Origin: Melioribacter roseus P3M-2
GTDB lineage: Bacteria > Bacteroidota > Ignavibacteria > Ignavibacteriales > Melioribacteraceae
DNA: 64,000 nucleotides
Direction: 5' to 3'
NCBI RefSeq assembly: GCF_000279145.1
Contig: NC_018178.1
Location: forward strand, 1,302,001-1,366,000
The notes under the pieces were generated by a model. The model made no database searches. It was not told the DNA's origin and saw only the letters and a list, made by a program, of their open reading frames with translations. Of the stretch, positions 5,882 through 61,186 are shown piece by piece (position 1 is the stretch's first letter; the number at the start of each line of letters is the position of its first letter). The translations under genes and the position numbers were made by a program.

Positions 5882-7378
5882 ATGATGAAGAACATGAAAA
5901 TCTTAATGATTTATCCTGAAACGCCGGCGACGTTCTGGAGTTTCAAGGATGCGTTAAAATTCGTATCGAAAAAATCCGCCGAGCCGCCGCTCGGATTAAT
6001 AACCGTGGCTTCCATGCTTCCTGCGGAATGGGAAAAGAAATTAATCGATTTGAATGTGAGCCGGCTCGAAGACGAGGATATTTTATGGGCGGATTATGTA
6101 TTTCTGAGCGGAATGAACATTCACACCTCGTCGATAAGAGAGATTGTCAGAAAGTGCAATAATCTCGACCGGAGTATAGTGGGCGGAGGACCGCTTTTTA
6201 CATTTCAGTATAACGATTTTCCGGGCATCGACCACTTTGTATTAAACGAAGCCGAACTGACATTGCCGGGTTTTTTACGAGATCTGGCCGAAGGAAAAGC
6301 GGAAAAAGTTTATTCGACGAATGAATTTCCAGATCTTAGCGCAACGCCGGCGCCGATGTGGGAATTGCTCGACATGAATAAATATGCGTCCATGAGCATA
6401 CAATATTCGCGCGGCTGTCCTTATGATTGCGAATTTTGCAGCATCACAGTGTTAAACGGGAGACGCCCGCGCACAAAAGATTGCCGTCAGTTTACAGCGG
6501 AACTCGATAAATTATACGAACTCGGATGGCGCGGAGGAGTTTCTATTGTCGACGACAATTTTATCGGAAACAAAAGAGCCTTGAAATCCGAAACTCTGCC
6601 CGCAATAATAAAATGGCAGGAGGAAAAAAATTATCCCTTCAATTTTATTACGGAAGTGTCGATTAACCTTGCAGACGACGACGAGCTTATCGACCTGATG
6701 GTTAAAGCAGGAATAAACAGCGTTTTTGTGGGAATCGAAACAACCGATCCGGATAGTTTGAACGAATGCGGCAAAAAACAAAACTTAAAAAGAAATCTCG
6801 AAATGTCAGTAAAAAAATTGATAAACAAAGGCATGATTGTCTCTGGAGGCTTCATTGTCGGATTCGACAGCGACAAACCGGGGTTTCACAAACGGTACGT
6901 CGATTTTATTCAAAACAGCGGAATAGTTTCGGCAATGGTAGGCTTGCTCAATGCGCCCACGGGTACAAAATTGTACAACCGTCTTAAAAAAGAGAAACGC
7001 TTAATCGACACATTCAGCGGCAATAATATGGACGGTTTTACTAACATTGTGCCCAGGATGAATTACAAAGAATTAATGAAAGGCTATAGTCAAATTATTA
7101 AAAGAATTTATTCGCCGAAAGAATATTATAGCCGCATAAAAACGTTTATAGATACATACACCGTTCCCGGCTGGATGAAAATGAAAATAGGCGCAGGGGA
7201 GTTGAAAGCGTTTTTTATGATTTTGTGGAAGTTGGGTCTGCGAGATAAAGGAAAGCGGTATTTCTGGGAAATCTTTTTCTATACCGTAAGGAAATATCCT
7301 AAAAAATTCCCGCTCGCCATGACTTTCGCCGTATACGGATATCATTTCAGAAAAATATCCGGAGGTATAACCAATTAA
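5882..7378 (+). CDS. B12-binding-type radical SAM protein (DUF4070 type)
   Basis: 498 residues. The N-terminal part resembles a cobalamin-binding fold (MKILMIYPETPATFW... to about 140). The radical SAM core carries CPYDCEFC (CxxxCxxC) in SRGCPYDCEFCSITVLNGR, which holds the 4Fe-4S cluster, and is followed by the FITEVSINLADDDEL and FVGIETTDPDSLNECGKKQN segments. The C-terminal domain fits the DUF4070 group. Relatives include methyltransferases and hopanoid or other lipid-modifying enzymes; the substrate is unknown. Two starts are possible: ATG 5882 or ATG 5894, the latter giving the family-like MKILMIYP. It is a single gene with its own upstream region. Confidence 0.85.
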   Translation: MMKNMKILMIYPETPATFWSFKDALKFVSKKSAEPPLGLITVASMLPAEWEKKLIDLNVSRLEDEDILWADYVFLSGMNIHTSSIREIVRKCNNLDRSIVGGGPLFTFQYNDFPGIDHFVLNEAELTLPGFLRDLAEGKAEKVYSTNEFPDLSATPAPMWELLDMNKYASMSIQYSRGCPYDCEFCSITVLNGRRPRTKDCRQFTAELDKLYELGWRGGVSIVDDNFIGNKRALKSETLPAIIKWQEEKNYPFNFITEVSINLADDDELIDLMVKAGINSVFVGIETTDPDSLNECGKKQNLKRNLEMSVKKLINKGMIVSGGFIVGFDSDKPGFHKRYVDFIQNSGIVSAMVGLLNAPTGTKLYNRLKKEKRLIDTFSGNNMDGFTNIVPRMNYKELMKGYSQIIKRIYSPKEYYSRIKTFIDTYTVPGWMKMKIGAGELKAFFMILWKLGLRDKGKRYFWEIFFYTVRKYPKKFPLAMTFAVYGYHFRKISGGITN

Positions 7379-7407
7379 TAATTTAGTTTTTTCTAAATAA
7401 TATTTTT

Positions 7408-7415
7408 TATATTTG
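7408..7415 (+). promoter_or_regulatory. Candidate Bacteroidota-type -7 box before the FKBP gene
   Basis: TATATTTG matches the TAnnTTTG -7 element of the FCB group. The expected -33 TTTG is only poorly matched (TTTAG around 7382-7386), and the implied 5' leader is about 170 nt. The rest of 7379-7589 is AT-rich, with a weak stem-loop ATTTAG/CTAAAT just after the radical SAM stop that could end that transcript. Confidence 0.3.
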
Positions 7416-7557
7416 TAAAGTAAGTTGCATTTCACACCTGAAGTTTTTCACATCGAATTTGCAACATTGGTTCTTCTCTTAAACTATTCGTAGTTTTTTG
7501 ATGTTATTTAAAAAAGTAAATTAAACCTGATATAAATCAATCAATAAACAAAATAAC

Positions 7558-51402: not shown

Positions 51403-51615
51403 GACTTCCCCTTTTAATAATTATCGGTAACAAATTAAAGAATTAATTCAAAATAATGAAGGAAGGCTTTTCGTTCTTCGTTTTGGGGTTCAACGTTCTT
51501 GGTTTTGGGGTTGGTGGTTTGTCATTCAAAGTTATACAACAAAGAACGTCAGCGCTTCCGCACAACCGCACCTCAGCGCTCCTAACGCCTGCACACCAGA
51601 ACGACGAACGCCCAC

Positions 51616-51656
51616 GTCTTTGCGACCCCAGAATGCGGGGGAAACAAACTCTAAAC
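51616..51656. repeat. Half copy of dispersed palindromic repeat
   Basis: GTCTTTGCGACC..AGAATGCGGGGGAAACAAACTC resembles the start of the element at 51814-51902 but stops before the second half. Confidence 0.6.
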
Positions 51657-51664
51657 AAAACTTC

Positions 51665-51759
51665 GTCTTTGCGAGGAGCGAGCAAAGCGAACGACGAAGC
51701 AAACTCTGATGAATTCCAGTGAGATTACTTCGCCCGCTGAAAGCGGGGCTCGTAATGAC
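51665..51759. repeat. Dispersed palindromic repeat, copy A
   Basis: Starts GTCTTTGCGAGGAGCGAG and ends GGGGCTCGTAATGAC, so the two ends are imperfectly complementary (TTGCGAG/CTCGTAA). Inside is GACGAAG...CTTCG and CCCGCTGAAAGCGGG. It resembles REP-like intergenic elements seen in many bacteria. Confidence 0.6.
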
Positions 51760-51813
51760 AAATAGCGATACACCCACTACGGGAAAAAGAAAACTCTGAA
51801 AGGACAGCCAGCT

Positions 51814-51902
51814 GTCTTTGCGACACCGCAGAATGCGGGGGAAGCAAACCTAAATGAATACAAGTGAGATACTTCCCCCGCCTGCGGCGGGGTCAGTATG
51901 AC
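51814..51902. repeat. Dispersed palindromic repeat, copy B
   Basis: Starts GTCTTTGCGACACCGC and ends GGGGTCAGTATGAC. GCGGGGGAAG (51835-51844) and CTTCCCCCGC (51872-51881) form a perfect 10-bp inverted repeat around a 27-nt loop. Same family as copy A. Confidence 0.65.
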
Positions 51903-51973
51903 AAAATAATGCATAGCAACATCGAAAAGGAAACGCAGTGAATTTAACAAGTCCCGCGCCTTGCACTGCGCCG

Positions 51974-52018: not shown

Positions 52019-52079
52019 GTCGGTAAACAAATCTATTGTTATACTTCATTAAAATCAAATAGATGATAACCTAGAAGAC

Positions 52080-52139
52080 GTTGCGATTTGCTTTTTCACA
52101 ACCGTGTCGGGATTTCTTTGACATACCTGTCCGTCTCTG
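52080..52139. repeat. CRISPR-repeat-like element, copy 1 (outside the array)
   Basis: Begins GTTGCGATTTGCTTT (52080-52094), the first 15 nt of the CRISPR repeat with one change, and later carries TTTCTTTGACATA (52113-52125), identical to repeat positions 23-35. The gap between the two blocks is 18 nt instead of 7. From 52087 to 52139 it is 50/53 identical to 52893-52945. On the minus strand it would read as an anti-repeat able to pair with both arms of the crRNA repeat. Confidence 0.7.
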
Positions 52140-52333
52140 CAAGATGTTTTAAAATAAATTTTTTCTGCGTCAGACGAATCAAAATCTTGAATAAAAAAAA
52201 GAAGAGTTTCTTCATTTCTCCCGCAGGAAGCGGGATTAATACGGAATAAATTTTTGTGTAATGTTTTACCGCTCAAGCTCGCTGAAAATGCTAATTTACG
52301 ATAAAGGAATATTATTTTATTAAATATAAAAAG

Positions 52334-52401
52334 CCGGCGGTATTAACAGTTCCGCGCCTGCCGCCGGGCGTCTTAAAGTTACGCTCACGGAAGCACTTTA
52401 A
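52334..52401. repeat. GC-rich double stem-loop element
   Basis: CCGGCGG (52334-52340)/CCGCCGG (52361-52367) and TTAAAGT (52373-52379)/ACTTTAA (52395-52401) form two adjacent stems. No protein frame. Possibly a degraded dispersed repeat. Confidence 0.4.
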
Positions 52402-52738
52402 AACGTTGTTTTATAATAACTAATTATTCATTACCTGTCAATAGAACCTACTTTTTACACTATAATTGAATATTCATTTGAACTAAAGGTCTGGTCGGTA
52501 TATTAGTCCGTTAATTTTGTTAAATAAAGGATTATTCGCTGTTATTCTGTACCGTTTCTTAAGAAATGCTCATGCGGTTGTAACGGCAGATCAATGAGCG
52601 CTCTCTCAATGATAAGCCTTTGGCTATATTTTTACCAAACCAATCCTTTTAATGCGGTTTTGTATATTACATCTCATACGTTAATCTCACCAGGCTATAT
52701 TCTATAGTTAATCGTAATCATGTACGCATATATTTCCC

Positions 52739-52770
52739 CGTACTTATTCCGTATATTTCCGTACGCATTC
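52739..52770 (+). repeat. Three short head-to-tail units upstream of the array
   Basis: CGTACTTATTC, CGTATATTTC and CGTACGCATTC follow each other directly, about 120 nt before the degenerate CRISPR unit. Could be protein-binding iterons or chance in AT-rich DNA. Confidence 0.3.
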
Positions 52771-52892
52771 ATGTGCCCGATACAGAAGCATACTTAAATT
52801 GATTTTATTACTTGTACAATCTTTCTTATATAGGAATCCAATAACAATTAGAGGCGTTTTTTACCGACTATACTTTTTATGGTTTATAATGG

Positions 52893-52961
52893 TTTGCTTT
52901 CTCTCAACCTTGTCGGGATTTCTTTGACATACCTGTCCGTCTCTGACGGATTAAAACCAAG
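52893..52961 (+). repeat. Degenerate hybrid CRISPR unit (copy 2 of the 53-nt element)
   Basis: From 52893 to 52945 this repeats the 52087 element with 3 differences; after ACGG it continues with ATTAAAACCAAG (52950-52961), the exact 3' end of the CRISPR repeat. A 29-nt spacer-like segment (52962-52990) then leads into the first perfect repeat. It thus joins the outside element to the array. Confidence 0.7.
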
Positions 52962-52990
52962 TATGCGTAGCTACTGTGCTGCTTAAACTG

Positions 52991-54548
52991 GTTGTGATTT
53001 GCTTTCAAATTTTTTCTTTGACATATTAAAACCAAGGAATTATTGCGTTTTATGTTATTACGCCAGTTGTGATTTGCTTTCAAATTTTTTCTTTGACATA
53101 TTAAAACCAAGGATATTGACGTTAGCGACACTGAGGAAAAGGTTGTGATTTGCTTTCAAATTTTTTCTTTGACATATTAAAACCAAGATAAGCTGATTGC
53201 TAAAAATGTTCTGATTGTTGTGATTTGCTTTCAATTTTTTCTTTGACATATTAAAACCAAGTATCTCTATCATGAGTTGCGCAAAAGAGGAGTTGTGATT
53301 TGCTTTCAAATTTTTTCTTTGACATATTAAAACCAAGAAACGGTAATATAAAATAAAGGGGAGCTAGTTGTGATTTGCTTTCAAATTTTTTCTTTGACAT
53401 ATTAAAACCAAGGAGTACACAGGATAGGGCAGAAGAACAGCGTTGTGATTTGCTTTCAAATTTTTTCTTTGACATATTAAAACCAAGAGGTAGGCAGGGA
53501 CAAACTCAGCGAAGGTGTTGTGATTTGCTTTCAAATTTTTTCTTTGACATATTAAAACCAAGGTAAGCAATTTTAACTCCTCCGTCGATTCTGTTGTGAT
53601 TTGCTTTCAAATTTTTTCTTTGACATATTAAAACCAAGCAGGATGTCGAGCTTCATCGCCTTTGCAACGTTGTGATTTGCTTTCAAATTTTTTCTTTGAC
53701 ATATTAAAACCAAGTCCATTGCCGCACAACAACGGTGATGGCATGTTGTGATTTGCTTTCAAATTTTTTCTTTGACATATTAAAACCAAGAGAATTGGGC
53801 AGACGAGGTCTATAAATGGTGTTGTGATTTGCTTTCAAATTTTTTCTTTGACATATTAAAACCAAGATAGAGACAGCGGAAACGACGGAAACGCCGGTTG
53901 TGATTTGCTTTCAAATTTTTTCTTTGACATATTAAAACCAAGGACTCCCGCAGAGGCAAAGCGGAGCGCATCGTTGTGATTTGCTTTCAAATTTTTTCTT
54001 TGACATATTAAAACCAAGGAGAGAAGGGGTGGGCGACTGTCAAGGCAGTTGTGATTTGCTTTCAAATTTTTTCTTTGACATATTAAAACCAAGCCCGCCC
54101 CAAACAGACCCCAACGGGACTTCGTTGTGATTTGCTTTCAAATTTTTTCTTTGACATATTAAAACCAAGTAATTTCTTTTTCTACTGAATCTCCTATTAG
54201 TTGTGATTTGCTTTCAAATTTTTTCTTTGACATATTAAAACCAAGTTAGCGAAATAAATGGCAGATTATCCTGATGTTGTGATTTGCTTTCAAATTTTTT
54301 CTTTGACATATTAAAACCAAGTATTCGACGCTGTTAATGATGGCTTGGTAGGTTGTGATTTGCTTTCAAATTTTTTCTTTGACATATTAAAACCAAGAGC
54401 TCTTCAATAGGATTTGCAAACGGTTTGTTGTGATTTGCTTTCAAATTTTTTCTTTGACATATTAAAACCAAGTTTACCCCCATAAATGGAATGCAAACGT
54501 TAGTTGTGATTTGCTTTCAAATTTTTTCTTTGACATATTAAAACCAAG
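52991..54548 (+). CRISPR. Type II-C CRISPR array, 21 repeats of 46 nt, 20 spacers
   Basis: The repeat starts GTTGTGATTTGCTTTC, has an AT-rich middle, and ends TTTGACATATTAAAACCAAG; length 46 nt. I counted 21 copies from 52991 to 54548, essentially identical except the fourth (53217-53261), which lacks one A. The 20 spacers are 29 or 30 nt; one more 29-nt spacer lies before the first copy, behind a degenerate unit. The 5' end of the repeat is complementary to the tracrRNA at 61101, so crRNAs read on the plus strand. Spacer targets cannot be identified without a search. Confidence 0.97.
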
Positions 54549-54558
54549 GTACCCCGAA

Positions 54559-54585
54559 CTAACTCGTTGTTATTCAATGAGTTAG
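54559..54585 (+). other. Hairpin directly after the last repeat
   Basis: CTAACTCGTTG and CAATGAGTTAG form an 11-bp stem (one G-U if RNA) with loop TTATT, starting 11 nt beyond the last repeat. No T-run follows, so it is not itself a terminator; it may mark the array end. Confidence 0.45.
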
Positions 54586-54633
54586 CATGATTTTAGGATT
54601 AAAAAAATCAGACGGGGGAACAGGAATGTCAAT

Positions 54634-54665
54634 AAGCCCTCTCTTTTTACGAAAGAGAGGGCTTT

Positions 54666-54667
<2 letters not shown>
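54634..54667 (+). terminator. Terminator of the CRISPR transcript
   Basis: AAGCCCTCTCTTT (54634-54646) and AAAGAGAGGGCTT (54652-54664) form a perfect 13-bp stem with 5-nt loop, and TTTTT (54663-54667) gives a T-tract on the plus strand. It overlaps the cas2 stop codon and could serve both directions, but the T-run favours ending the plus-strand array transcript. Confidence 0.75.
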
Positions 54668-55007
<340 letters not shown>

Positions 55008-55087: not shown

Positions 55088-56077
55088 TTATGTTTCAAGT
55101 TCAGGATAAGTAATCTTTCTAGCCTTTCCTTCAAAACAACGCGCTAGCGAAGAGGAAGTTCTCTGCGCGGCAATCATTAACGGACTTCTTTTGCCTCCGA
55201 TGATTACATCCAAAGTTCCGATATTCAACAATTGTCTTTTTATTGAGCTGTCCAATTCATAAAAATTTTCGCCGTTACTCACAATCGAATAAACCACATT
55301 GTCGACGAACGGTCTGTAAGGTTCCATAATATCGTCCGCCAAGCAATATGCGTTATATTTATTAGAGTGATGAATTCCCAATGTGGGCAACATACCCGAC
55401 CCCACAATAGCCCTGGCAATAATGGCGCGAAGTATTGCATAACCATAATTAAGCAAATTATTCGGAGGTTCTCCGTATCGGTCTCTTATAAAATCCGGTA
55501 TCATCGGGAAGAAGTTTTTCCAGTAGTAAGCCGCCGCTCTGCCCTCGTAATTATCCGGGTCGCCGGATCTTACTTTTTTAGACCATGTAATCATATTATT
55601 AATTTTGACATTCCTCTTTTTCAGCATCATTGCTTGGTTGCGGATTTTTGCCGCTATTGTTTGAGCCCATAATTGTTTTTTAAGCGGGAGAGACGATTCA
55701 ATTTGCGCATTGATAATCTTTGTTTGTTCGTTATTGCCTTCCAGCGGCATAAACAAACCGCTGGGCATATGGGACTTATTACAGATTACAATGGCGGCGT
55801 TGTTATCCAAAAGAGAATCGAGCAACCCGTGAGTTAAAGTAATTTGACGGTGATCCAGCACAATAATGCCTATATCCTCTATTGGTAGTGTATGAGAAAG
55901 GGCGTCCGCCGCCTTCATTCGCTTTTCGAGCCATCCGTCGTCTATATCGGATGCAGCTGCGGTTCCGTAATTTTTGCTTTCGCTTTCCACTAAATTTTCT
56001 TTATATCTTATCGTTAACTGATTATTCTTCATTGAAAGATATGCCGGATTGCCAATATATAATGTTCGTTTTATCAT
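55088..56077 (-). CDS. cas1: CRISPR-associated endonuclease Cas1 (type II)
   Basis: 329 residues. It begins MIKRTLYIGNPAYLSMKNNQLTI. Metal ligands are Glu in GDPDNYEGRAAAYYW, His in LGIHHSNKYNAYCLADDIMEPYRPFVD, and Asp in the same segment. The integrase inserts new spacers together with Cas2. It is 8 bp downstream of cas9. Slightly longer than many type II Cas1 proteins, mainly at the C-terminus. Confidence 0.96.
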   Translation of the reverse strand: MIKRTLYIGNPAYLSMKNNQLTIRYKENLVESESKNYGTAAASDIDDGWLEKRMKAADALSHTLPIEDIGIIVLDHRQITLTHGLLDSLLDNNAAIVICNKSHMPSGLFMPLEGNNEQTKIINAQIESSLPLKKQLWAQTIAAKIRNQAMMLKKRNVKINNMITWSKKVRSGDPDNYEGRAAAYYWKNFFPMIPDFIRDRYGEPPNNLLNYGYAILRAIIARAIVGSGMLPTLGIHHSNKYNAYCLADDIMEPYRPFVDNVVYSIVSNGENFYELDSSIKRQLLNIGTLDVIIGGKRSPLMIAAQRTSSSLARCFEGKARKITYPELET

Positions 56078-56085
56078 TTTCTAAC

Positions 56086-59000
56086 TCACATTAATGGTTT
56101 TATATTACCCAACCTGTCGACCTGGATTTTTATGCAACAATCAGCAATGTTAAATTTGCCGTCCATTGTTTTGGGAGATTTATCATGCCAATCAATTTCT
56201 CCTTTTATTTTTTCTTTCGGATTCGAAGGTATAATAGCGTTTGCAATACGATGCTGAATGAATTGACAGACGCTTTTTGAACTACTAACCATTCTATATA
56301 TTCTTTCAGAAATTTCCTTCTTGTTATCCCAGTCTATCGGCGAAGGATGGTTTGTTTTTATTTTCTTTTGCTCCTCTTCGGTTGGAACGTAAACCAAATC
56401 ATTTGGAGATAAAATAATAGTTTTAAATCCCTCTTTTATCTCCGCTATTGATTTTCCTTCTATCAATCTTTCTATTGCCTTATGGGTTGCCAACGAATAC
56501 TTTTCGGGGCGTTCTTTTGTCGTTTCGTTTTCGTAAATAATAAAATAGGCTATAGCTCCTTTATCAACTTCCACATATTTATTTCCGAATTTATCGTCGG
56601 GTGATTTCTTTTCATGAATAGTTACTTTTTCAATTCTCTTGCCCGCCTTCTTTGTTAAAGCTTCTAACCCTTCTCCGGAGAAAGCCTCTGTAGCGTTGTC
56701 ATTATAACGAGAGAGGTGTTCGTGCAATAAATCGGCTAAAGGCGATTTTCCCTCTTTAGCATATGGAATTTTATTTATTTTGTCATGGGTGAATGATTTA
56801 TCCAGCGATACTCTTTTAGCGGCATATTCAACAAATTCAGCAATTTCAATATTCTCAAATTCATAATTATCGAGGATGTAAACAGTTTTATATTCATTTT
56901 TCCCGTTCTTTTTAATCTTGCCGGTGTCAACCTTTTTAGAGTTCTTCTTCAAGTATTTTTTAACCTCTGTCAAAAGTCTATCCGAATCTTCTATATCGCC
57001 GCCAATTTTATCAATGATATTTTTAATTAATCCCCGCGCCAATCTATCATATACATAACCGGCTAATCTTCTTTTTTCAGGATCGCGTTCAACTTTCATT
57101 CTTTCTATTTGAACTTTGAAAGCTTCCAAAACAGGCACGTTCCGTTTTTCTTTTATCCATATAATACCTTGAGGTTCTTTAAACATTGATTTGCGCACAG
57201 CCAGCCATCTTCCGTTTCCGTCTTTTATTTGTTTTTCTTTTATTTTTACGGGTTTTCCGTTTTTTATTTCCCATTTCTCATATTTGTTATAAGGTTTTGT
57301 AACAATCGGAGTGTTTTCTTTAAATGAAATCACGCATGATTCGAGCGAATCTTTTACGTCCCGGGCAAAATTATTCCACGGCGGTTTAAAATCTCTTATT
57401 TTTCTTTTGCATAAGGTCAATCTGTATTTTCTGATTTCTTCATTTGTATCAGAGGCATTAAGCGTGTTTAAATAACGAATATGCTCCCGGGTTGTGGCGG
57501 CTATTACTATCGCGTCCAAAGCATGATGTCTGTGATCCAGACGTTTTATGCCGTTTTTTTCTAATTTTTCATTAACGCTTAATTTAAAACCGAATTTTTT
57601 ATTTCCGTATTCGTCTTCATATTCATAGATTAATTTTTGCCCAAGTATTTTTTCCAATCTTTCAAATCTCGGTTTTAACAATCTTTTCCATACGTCGTTC
57701 AATCCCCAATTATCTTTAAGCTCCGAAGTAATGGAGCCGACCGTAAAAATCATATTATTTGGCTCTGCCAAAACAGGACGCAAAAGCTCCCCTAATTTTT
57801 TCCCGATATAGCGAGTGTCGTTTATTTGTCTTTCGATAAAATCATCGGGAACTTCAGTCGCCAGCAGATTTTTTCTTTTAGCGCGATTGTTTTTAAATGT
57901 ATCGTCTACAAAATGCTTATATTCATCGTAGGTAAAAATCTTAATATCTTTCCCTTCGTAAGAACAATAACCGTTACTGGCGCTTATAAAGTTTGCGGCA
58001 AGTTCATTTCCTTTTGCCTTGTTGACAATACGTTCCGCAATAATCAAATTGCTCATTGCGTCGTTTTTCATTTTTGAACGGGGAATAATGTGCTCAATTT
58101 CATATTCGTTTCCGTCGAAAAGTTTGCTAAGAGGAATTATTTTACCCGTATAAGGAGAACGACAATTTTGATTCAGCCAAAGAATATATTTTTTCAATTG
58201 TTGTTCGGTTGGTATTTTTTCGGATTTAACTTTGCCGTTCCAGTCTTGTTCATTAACCGACGCCTGGTCTTTCCACAAACGGAAGCGTTCGATGTCTTTC
58301 GGATTGTCGGGATTCGGTTTTACTGTAAATCCCGAAATAATTTTATTGCCTTCTTCGTCATAATGTTCAAACGCTGTTTCGTTAAGCAGCTCGGTTAATA
58401 TTTTTTTTGCTTTTAATTTTTCGTCAAAATTATTTTTTTGCGCTTTGCTTATTAATTCGCGCTGTTTAGAATTATTTTTTAGTTCTCTACCCAGCTCCAC
58501 ATGAATTTCGTCTATCCTACCGTATTTATCCCACACTTCTTTTACCAACGAACATGTTTCGCGCATTACCGATTCTACCAAAGGATTGCGCAACTCGCCC
58601 GGTTTAAGCATTTTTAGTACTACCTTTCCATATTCTTTTGGAGAATCGCATCGAATTTCTTCTTTTTCCGAATGTCTGCCGTATAACAAATAAGCCGCCT
58701 GATAAGTGTTCAAACCCTTAATAAGCTCTTCGTACGATTTTTTCTTAATAAAACTTTTTAATATTTGTTTCGGGATTGCTTCGTCGGATACATTTTGGAT
58801 TTTATTTTCGCTAAAATTTACCGTTCTTAATCTTTCTAATATATGATCGGCCGTATCCAACGCGCTCTCTATCGAATGTAAAAATCCTTCCTTCTCTTTT
58901 TTATTTTAAGTTTTACTTCTTTTGCGCTTTCTTCTTTTAACCGACTAACAATAGATTGAGGATGACTCCAGTATTTGCCGACACGCATAAACATCAACAT

Positions 59001-61059
59001 TTTACGAACTGCCAATGCGGAATATGAACCGTATTCTTTTTTTAAAGCAGGTAATTTAGAAAGAGCCTCCGCTAATTTTTGGGCTTGATCCGAAGATAAT
59101 TTAAAAGTTTCATAATTATCATTTCGGACGGAATTACCTTCGTTATCCGATAAAGACCATCCGAGGGAACTCAAAATGCCTTTTTTACTTTTCTTTATCG
59201 GCTAAATCATGCGAATAATCCGCATGCCACAACTTGAATAGCAGCGTTTCGTCTTCTATTATATAATTCCCGTCAATTTCTAGGTTTTTAAAAAGTTTTT
59301 TGTAACGATGTTTTGTCTCGTTGCCTTTTAATATATCTCTGTTTCTGAAAAGGTTTATATAATGCGAAGATTCTTTAGATTTTCTATCAATTTTTATGGG
59401 TTTGGATTCGTTACACTCATTAATGACCAACAGCAAGTCTTTTTCCGTAACATTTTCTTTATTATTCATCAAATCAAACAATTTCTCTTTTACATTGTCG
59501 TTTATGTACGATTTTGTTTCGTCCACTTCCAGAACTCTTCTGCCTTTTTCGTCCGTATATTCTTTTCTTATTAATCTTATATTATGAATATCCTGCCATA
59601 TGCGAAATTCCTGGAAAACCGGAGACGATTTAGGAATACATTTTAATCCGTAGGTTTCGCCGTCTATTCCTTTTCTTTTTTCATATTGACATTCTCCAAT
59701 AAGATTTTTTTGCGACTTTAATTCCCTTTGGAAATAGATAATATCTTTACTTATAATATGAAACAAATCTTTGGAAATAAGTTCTTTAGCTTTATGCAAA
59801 TTGTACTTTGACTGCGTCGGATAAAAGCTCTCAATTATTTTTTTAATCAGGTCTTTATTGTTATTTAATTTTCTCAATTCTTCGTTGAGTTCGCACTGTT
59901 TGTTCCAGATAGCCTCCAATTCTTTTTCATATCGCCAACGGTACACGGGATATTGACGAATCTTATAATCTTTGCCTTCTCTGTGCGCGTTGACCAGTTC
60001 GTCAAAAAAGAATTCTCCCGGATGCTTGGATGATATTTTATCATTGAGAGCCGTTGTGCACAAAGCCCAGTCGTTTTCCGTAGGTTGTTGCGGAGTATTT
60101 TGCTTAAACTTTCCGTTTTCAATTTTCTGCGTTACTATAAAGGTAAATTCGTTTCCCTCCCATTGAGGCTTTTCTTTTCTTTCTACTTCATAGGGCATAA
60201 TAGATTTATCTTCGAGATATATCTTAAATTTTTTCAGTCCTTTTCTTCCTGTTTCGCTCGTCTCCTCGATTCTGCTTACTTTAGTTATCGAAACAAATTT
60301 TATTTCACACTTATCTTTTTTAAATTCGTCTTTAACTTGGAATTCACAAAAGTCGCCTTTGTCCTCGATAATTAATCTTTGTTTGAATTCCGAGCGATCG
60401 ATAAGCGATGTATCCTCCAAGTCTTTCCTGCCGCTCTTAAATCCTCTCCTTTGATTAAATAAGTACAGTATTCTAACAATTTCATCTTTTGTAAGTTTTT
60501 TTGACAATCCCTTCTTTCTTAGATAATACACGGCCCAATCTTTTGGCAACAGTTTAATATCATCATTTCTCTTTTTACCTTTATGCGTGTCTCTGTATTT
60601 TATTTCTTCAATTATTTCATTTAGTTCTTCATCTTTGTAGCCGAAACTTTTATAAAATTCACGATAACTGTCATCGGAAATCGGGGCGTAATCGCTTATT
60701 CGAAAAACGAACGCCCCTTGTTCCCTAATTATTTCTTTTATTTTTTTTGTATTATCAAGCGGAAAATCTTCCGGCAGCCAATTCATTATTTTAAATAACC
60801 TAATCAACTTGGTTCTTCTTAACTTGTAACGATGTTTTAATCTTCTGCTTCCTCTTTTTTGTCTGCGTGCGGCGGCTTTTGTTACAACAGGAGCGCCCTC
60901 TTCAAATTTCTGAAGATAGTCTGCCTCCGTTGGAATAATTCTGCTTGTACACCATTCAATACTTCCTTCTTTGCCATAATTCTCAAAATGCTCCGGCAAA
61001 TTCAGCAAAGCGGCTCCGATTGAATTTGTGCCGATATCGAGTCCCAATACTTTTTTCAT
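56086..61059 (-). CDS. cas9: Cas9, type II-C, about 1,657 residues, with two compensating frameshifts
   Basis: RNA-guided DNA endonuclease. RuvC-I has KKVLGLDIGTNSIG with Asp8; the Arg-rich bridge helix spans about 61-90 (KAAARRQKRGSRRLKHRYKL). RuvC-II VELGREL gives Glu about 855, HNH EYEIEHIIPRSK gives His about 990, and RuvC-III LDHRHHALDAI gives Asp about 1182. Total span 4,974 nt is divisible by three, but the frame slips out between about 59190 and 58900: deleting one base in the T run 59189-59192 and adding one at 58897-58902 gives a continuous protein (GILSSLGWSLSDNEG... to KEGFLHSIESALDTADHIL). All catalytic residues lie outside the shifted piece. Confidence 0.93.
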
Positions 61060-61100: not shown

Positions 61101-61186
61101 AGCGAAGCAAATCACAATAAGGATGATTCCGTAGGAAGCTTTGCTTCATAAGTTTGCCCCTTGTACTTAACAGGGGGCATTTTTAT
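61101..61186 (+). ncRNA. tracrRNA of the type II-C system
   Basis: Plus strand, divergent from cas9 and about 40 nt upstream of its start. AAGCAAATCACAA (61106-61118) is complementary to the 5' part of the CRISPR repeat (TTGTGATTTGCTT). Then comes a short GGA-UGAU-UCC hairpin, a GAAGC-TTT-GCTTC hairpin, and a terminator stem TGCCCCTTG/CAGGGGGCA with a 7-nt loop followed by TTTTT (61180-61184). The anti-repeat, two hairpins and terminator match the layout of known II-C tracrRNAs. The 5' end and promoter are not defined. Confidence 0.85.

Follow-up and report, generated by a model that had tools for sequence, protein, structure and literature searches.

Two closely similar elements, E1 and E2, lie beside the Type II-C CRISPR array of Melioribacter roseus P3M-2, within the 64,000-nucleotide stretch of DNA analysed here (the window, to which all coordinates refer unless a contig is named). 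The best overall explanation, to which we assign a probability of about 0.8, is that they represent its two oldest repeats, at the leader-distal end, interrupted by small palindromes, copied once and deprived of the ends that face each other. Similar interruptions recur at the same end of many other II-C arrays.

The locus and its leader-distal end

The array comprises 21 repeats of 45-46 nt at 52991-54548 on the plus strand (20 exact and one with a 1-nt deletion at 53217). It is followed by the leader side (54549-54665), with the motif AGGATTAAAAAAAT at 54595-54608, and then by cas2 (54666-54995), cas1 (55088-56077) and a II-C cas9 (56086-61059), all on the minus strand. The cas9 gene is split into three open reading frames by two compensating frameshifts, which are either real or sequencing errors: 59185-61059, 58869-59174 in a different frame, and 56086-58860 in the frame of the first; HNH and RuvC_III are found only in the last of these. 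A tracrRNA candidate at 61107-61186 (plus strand) begins with the anti-repeat GCAAATCACAA, pairs with the repeat over 15 bp at -20.0 kcal/mol and continues into stem-loops and a terminator. The presence of cas9-cas1-cas2, the tracrRNA candidate and the array, with neither csn2 nor cas4 adjoining, defines the locus as Type II-C. The available text of PMC3534657 gives three CRISPR loci for M. roseus, with 16, 20 and 21 repeats. A known Rfam RNA was rejected as well, since Rfam gave only weak CRISPR-DR49 matches, all on ordinary repeats of the array, and two matches below threshold that look like chance.

Three observations together place E1 and E2 at the old, leader-distal end of the array. Among the arrays listed, cas genes were found beside the repeats in 78, and in 76 of these they are located 3' of the array. 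Further, in Ignavibacteria arrays a GGAT..AAAA motif stands 3' of the last repeat in 14 of 15 cases and 5' of the first repeat in 1 of 9. Finally, the available portion of PMC8092290 describes the II-C array of Flavobacterium columnare, from which alone experimental proof of the polarity comes, as transcribed from within, toward the variable leader end, with a 'T' terminal repeat at the opposite end. Between E2 and the first normal repeat lie 29 nt (52962-52990, plus strand), the length of a spacer and hence the oldest spacer of the regular array, while E1 and E2 are separated by 753 nt (52140-52892).

The preliminary description had noted 50 identities over 53 positions between 52087-52139 and 52893-52945, and an ungapped comparison confirms this figure. 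With 52075-52150 as query, only two matches in the 3,300,414-bp single-contig genome rose above noise (E 7e-34 and 2e-17), the third having an E-value of 0.4. The repeat blocks reported inside both elements are likewise real: each element aligns locally to the array repeat, for which GTTGTGATTTGCTTTCAAATTTTTTCTTTGACATATTAAAACCAAG served as reference, with a score of 19.5, above the highest of 2,000 shuffles (17.0 for E1 and 17.5 for E2), and TTTCTTTGACATA occurs exactly at 52113 and at 52919. A genome-wide dispersed element was rejected, E1 and E2 being the only two copies in the genome, as was a viral or plasmid origin of the element.

Direct comparison with the repeat reveals the same two insertions in both elements, all on the plus strand. 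The first consists of 18 nt that follow TTTGCTTT and stand in place of the 7-nt CAAATTT of the repeat; it occupies 52095-52112 in E1, where it ends in TGTCGGGA, and 52901-52918 in E2, where it reads CTCTCAACCTTGTCGGGA. The second, CCTGTCCGTCTCTG(ACGGA), follows TTTGACATA. Its full form, CCTGTCCGTCTCTGACGGA, is a perfect hairpin in E2 (52932-52950), with the complete 6-bp stem TCCGTC TCT GACGGA at 52936-52950 in this copy only; in E1 (52126-52139) the right arm of the hairpin has been lost. The sequences once described as a longer, GC-rich middle and an extra CCTGTCCGTCTCTG are thus present, but they are two separate insertions into one repeat. E1 (52080-52139, plus strand) retains an intact 5' half, GTTGCGATTTGCTTT, including the GTTGCGATTTGC already recorded for it at 52080-52091, and has lost the 3' end; its first 25 nt pair with the tracrRNA candidate at -16.1, against the -20.0 of a normal repeat. 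E2 (52893-52961, plus strand), the terminal repeat of the array, has lost the 5' end and retains the 3' half, closing like a true repeat with an exact ATTAAAACCAAG at 52950-52961. The missing ends are those that face each other.

The surroundings hold little else that resembles a repeat. Twenty nucleotides before E1, ATTAAAATCAAA (52048-52059, plus strand) agrees weakly, at 10 of 12 positions, with the repeat 3' end and may be a third remnant. Within the 753-nt interval, no further degenerate repeats above shuffles were found on the plus strand; on the minus strand the E1 query scored 13.5, a value reached by 10 of 300 shuffles. The interval itself has no phage or plasmid match and no second copy in its own genome, and 96 nt of it (52347-52442) show 73% identity to a place in one other genome (G007, E 3e-8). 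On the far side of E1, 51430-51910 belongs to a dispersed repeat family, matched at about 60 places in the same genome, and has GC-rich palindromes at 51733 and 51876.

On the minus strand the two elements had also been taken for a possible decoy RNA or regulatory anti-repeat. Antisense E1 and E2 are indeed able to pair with the repeat (-35.9 and -31.5 kcal/mol), but the antisense of any repeat pairs with crRNA, and for an ordinary repeat the pairing is far stronger (-66.1 kcal/mol). No terminator-like site lies near E1 or E2. Moreover, among 164 genomes of the order, no other contains the whole 53-nt element, and it is different hairpins that recur at the same places; a regulatory or decoy role is accordingly very improbable. 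An identity of E1/E2 as the tracrRNA or its anti-repeat was rejected as well, an anti-repeat with stem-loops and a terminator behind it being present instead at 61107-61186. CreR is a degenerate mini-array that represses cas genes, and the tracr-pairing 5' half retained in E1 would suit a guide of this kind. However, the 24 nt upstream of E1 and E2 match the cas9/tracrRNA promoter no better than elsewhere in the window, and a CreR-type guide, to which we give even less credence than to the decoy or anti-repeat, was rejected in view of the lack of a guide-like match to the cas9 promoter region. Promoter-like sites near E1 and E2 are no more numerous than in shuffles.

Interrupted and half repeats in related arrays

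The identification as old degenerate repeats, one of the options raised at the outset, gains its strength from the leader-distal place and from the recurrence of the pattern in many other II-C arrays. Genomes found by Cas9 homology contributed fifteen arrays belonging to this repeat family, that of the window included, a first contig scan with Cas9 alone having yielded no relative. In this less biased set, interrupted repeats occupy 4 of 9 visible far ends: those of the window, of L051, of L046, which has two interrupted repeats, and of L050, where a single repeat carries three insertions. A scripted census, based on a pattern scan of genome contigs that yielded many Bacteroidota arrays, flagged at least 14 of 106 array entries, or at least 12 of 100 once duplicates had been removed. 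The entries dropped before counting were L136 and L185 (L046 locus), L186 (L071), L177 and L089 (L042) and L181 (from the genome of L044). The value of 12 in 100 is no frequency, since the array set was chosen toward interrupted repeats and comprises listed matches only. Four interrupted-repeat cases lie outside the census (L050, L051, L135 and L202), and a separate pattern scan, which was unable to match E1/E2 and whose matches were mostly unrelated to arrays, serves as no census.

Among the arrays listed, the interrupted repeats stand at the cas2-distal end in 12 of 12 census arrays, with a mean relative rank of 0.04 (0 of 20,000 permutations), although the true first repeat may sit further out because some loci start inside an array. 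Where the 5' half is undamaged, the insertion starts after repeat position 13-21 in these arrays. The inserts differ between arrays, whereas the place of insertion in the terminal repeat stays the same. By eye, a GC-rich hairpin is seen within the inserts of 8 of the 12 census arrays, while those of the other four (L076, L097, L105 and L119) are AT-rich and without a clear hairpin.

Loss of one half of the terminal repeat is widespread, too. A half repeat, detected through the last 16 nt of the repeat only, closes the far end in 33 of the 67 listed arrays in which this end is visible. Terminal half repeats match the consensus at 0.27-0.58 over positions 1-18 and at 0.73-1.00 over positions 20-46. 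Further, again among the arrays listed, 42 of 100 repeat consensuses contain the motif TAnnTTTG, the Bacteroidota -7 box, where 1.9 would be expected; the repeat of the window has TTTCTTTG in its stead. Since positions 1-18 have decayed and 20-46 are kept, the repeat would appear to be built of two modules, one for tracrRNA pairing and the other a probable promoter, with a junction that tolerates insertions. In the last repeat the pairing half would be useless, because no spacer stands before it, and it is the conservation of the 3' half that points to a promoter role.

Enlarged repeats of 67-101 nt are accompanied by spacers of normal length. In L097 (1215-1797) and L076 (1-456), four or five successive repeats, each about 92 nt long, share a near-identical 45-46-nt insert and have normal 30-nt spacers, and 33-36 normal repeats then follow. 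In L162 (5117-5844) the repeat forms at the old end alternate in the order A B A B B B A; alternating forms are also seen at the old ends of L066 (268-520), L087 and L119. Copying at the leader-proximal end alone is insufficient to produce these arrangements, because clean newer repeats follow identical enlarged runs in L076, L097 and L109 and because the forms alternate in L162, L066, L087 and L119. Array recombination, or collapse and refilling of the array, as reviewed in the part of PMC8047081 available, may lie behind such patchy orders. Searches of open-licence PMC papers brought up no title or abstract that names palindrome-interrupted or half repeats.

The second insertion site and a possible source of the inserts

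With E1 as query, the 164 genomes of the order yielded one exact 20-nt match beside an array outside the window, in genome G038; the remaining weak matches are shorter or less identical. The contig concerned, L202, is identical with L101 and belongs to a Melioribacter sp. MAG; its array consists of a single spacer between two repeats. In the terminal repeat CCTGTCCGCCCTTTGGCGGA occupies the site of insertion 2, and the other repeat, adjoining the leader, has the first insertion only. In this reduced II-C array (7276-7475), an interrupted repeat thus lies directly at the leader. Across the family the site-2 pattern is found in exactly 3 of 79 genomes (G000, which is the genome of the window, G031 and G038), with 0 for the reversed control, and the stems differ by a paired change, TCCGTC/GACGGA versus TCCGCC/GGCGGA. 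A single ancestral insertion whose stem was kept would fit, and so would several insertions at a hot spot, all from one palindrome family.

The paired change, together with the common site and orientation in the three genomes, might also suggest that the family's terminal repeat has inherited insertion 2 as a functional stem-loop, placed for example at the 5' terminus of the first crRNA precursor. This seems improbable to us, given that the pattern is confined to three genomes and is missing from L046, which is equally close by Cas1 (70.5%). The flanking genes tested are not common to the window and the other two carriers, and the picture would look identical if members of one palindrome family had entered a hot spot independently.

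It is conceivable, though we rate it as rather unlikely, that selection keeps the hairpins of terminal repeats as anchors, too unlike the other repeats to recombine with them, so that the array does not collapse. Interrupted repeats are confined to the far end, polymorphisms of terminal repeats have been proposed to reduce array collapse (in the text of PMC8047081 at hand), and the sole collapsed array seen, the two-repeat array of L202, has a hairpin in both repeats. However, 34 of the 67 visible far ends show no half repeat by the test applied above, some having insertions instead, and survivorship alone gives the same pattern.

As for the inserts themselves, palindromes of the form CCCG..CGGGACARG number 329 matches against 33 for the control in 48 relatives, several of which have many copies, and hairpins like them lie within repeats of L050 and L109. 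In the genome of M. roseus P3M-2, neither CCCG..CGGGACARG (2 against 1 in the control) nor CYTGTCC..GGA (103 against 120) is enriched. Y1_Tnp genes occur in 42 of the 48 relatives, and three are present in the genome of the window; over the 48 genomes their relation to hairpin number is weak, with a rank correlation of 0.37 (p 0.009) that ignores kinship. An origin of the inserts through the REP/TnpA-REP mechanism, as outlined in the accessible text of PMC6006769, is possible.

Proposed history and comparison with known systems

If E1 and E2 are the two oldest repeats, their history would have begun with two small palindromic insertions into one repeat, one at the junction between the tracrRNA-pairing part and the 3' half and one directly before TTAAAACCAAG. 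The repeat would then have been copied once together with its insertions, through spacer acquisition or array recombination. The facing ends of the copies might have been lost as 753 unrelated nucleotides came to stand between them, either by replacement or by growth of the intervening DNA, with E2 still acting as the closing repeat of the array. II-C arrays have promoters inside their repeats and are transcribed toward the leader, as is established for other II-C systems. Since this is so, the 3' half kept in E2 probably once was, and maybe still is, the transcript start for the oldest spacer; with no spacer upstream of E2, nothing would have kept the lost 5' half from decaying.

For the window itself the outcome is modest, the supposed 'anti-repeat' being old array wreckage. 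Beyond it, interrupted repeats are natural mutants that show which parts of the II-C repeat are needed where: the last repeat can do without its tracr-pairing half but retains the 3' half, and repeats of about twice the normal length have normal spacers. Both observations make the location of the promoter and the repeat-length rule of II-C adaptation testable. A more sweeping proposal, which we regard as speculative and doubtful in its entirety, would treat the 46-nt II-C repeat of Bacteroidota and Ignavibacteria as a unit of two modules, tracrRNA pairing at positions 1 to about 18 and a stand-alone promoter at about 20-46, with a junction that takes inserts from 10 nt to over 50 nt in length. 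Cas1-Cas2 would copy even enlarged repeats of up to about 100 nt in full, alongside spacers of the normal 30 nt, because the second cut would be measured from the far end instead of depending on total length. A bare promoter would be what is retained of the last repeat, and hairpins there would guard the array against recombinational collapse.

Degenerate terminal, or trailer, repeats as portrayed in the available passages of PMC8047081 and PMC8092290 resemble those described here in being leader-distal, in decaying at one end and in forming a stable anchor of the array. While the known cases show substitutions or truncations, here whole palindromes have been inserted at defined places, and the decaying half is the one that pairs with the tracrRNA. 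REP and related palindromic mini-elements, which TnpA-REP (Y1) proteins mobilise, are, like the palindrome family considered here, short GC-rich hairpins dispersed in genomes. REP elements have many copies in their host, whereas the palindromes tested here are not enriched in the genome of the window, and a Y1 protein would be a candidate for mobilising them. The II-C systems of Neisseria, Campylobacter and Flavobacterium, with promoters embedded in the repeats, share with this locus an array convergent with cas9-cas1-cas2 and transcription toward the leader, although for the present locus the promoter in the 3' half is deduced from conservation. Overall, degenerate terminal repeats are known already; what the searches of open-licence papers did not turn up is a set of repeats, from many genomes, that palindromes interrupt at a single defined junction and always at the same array end.
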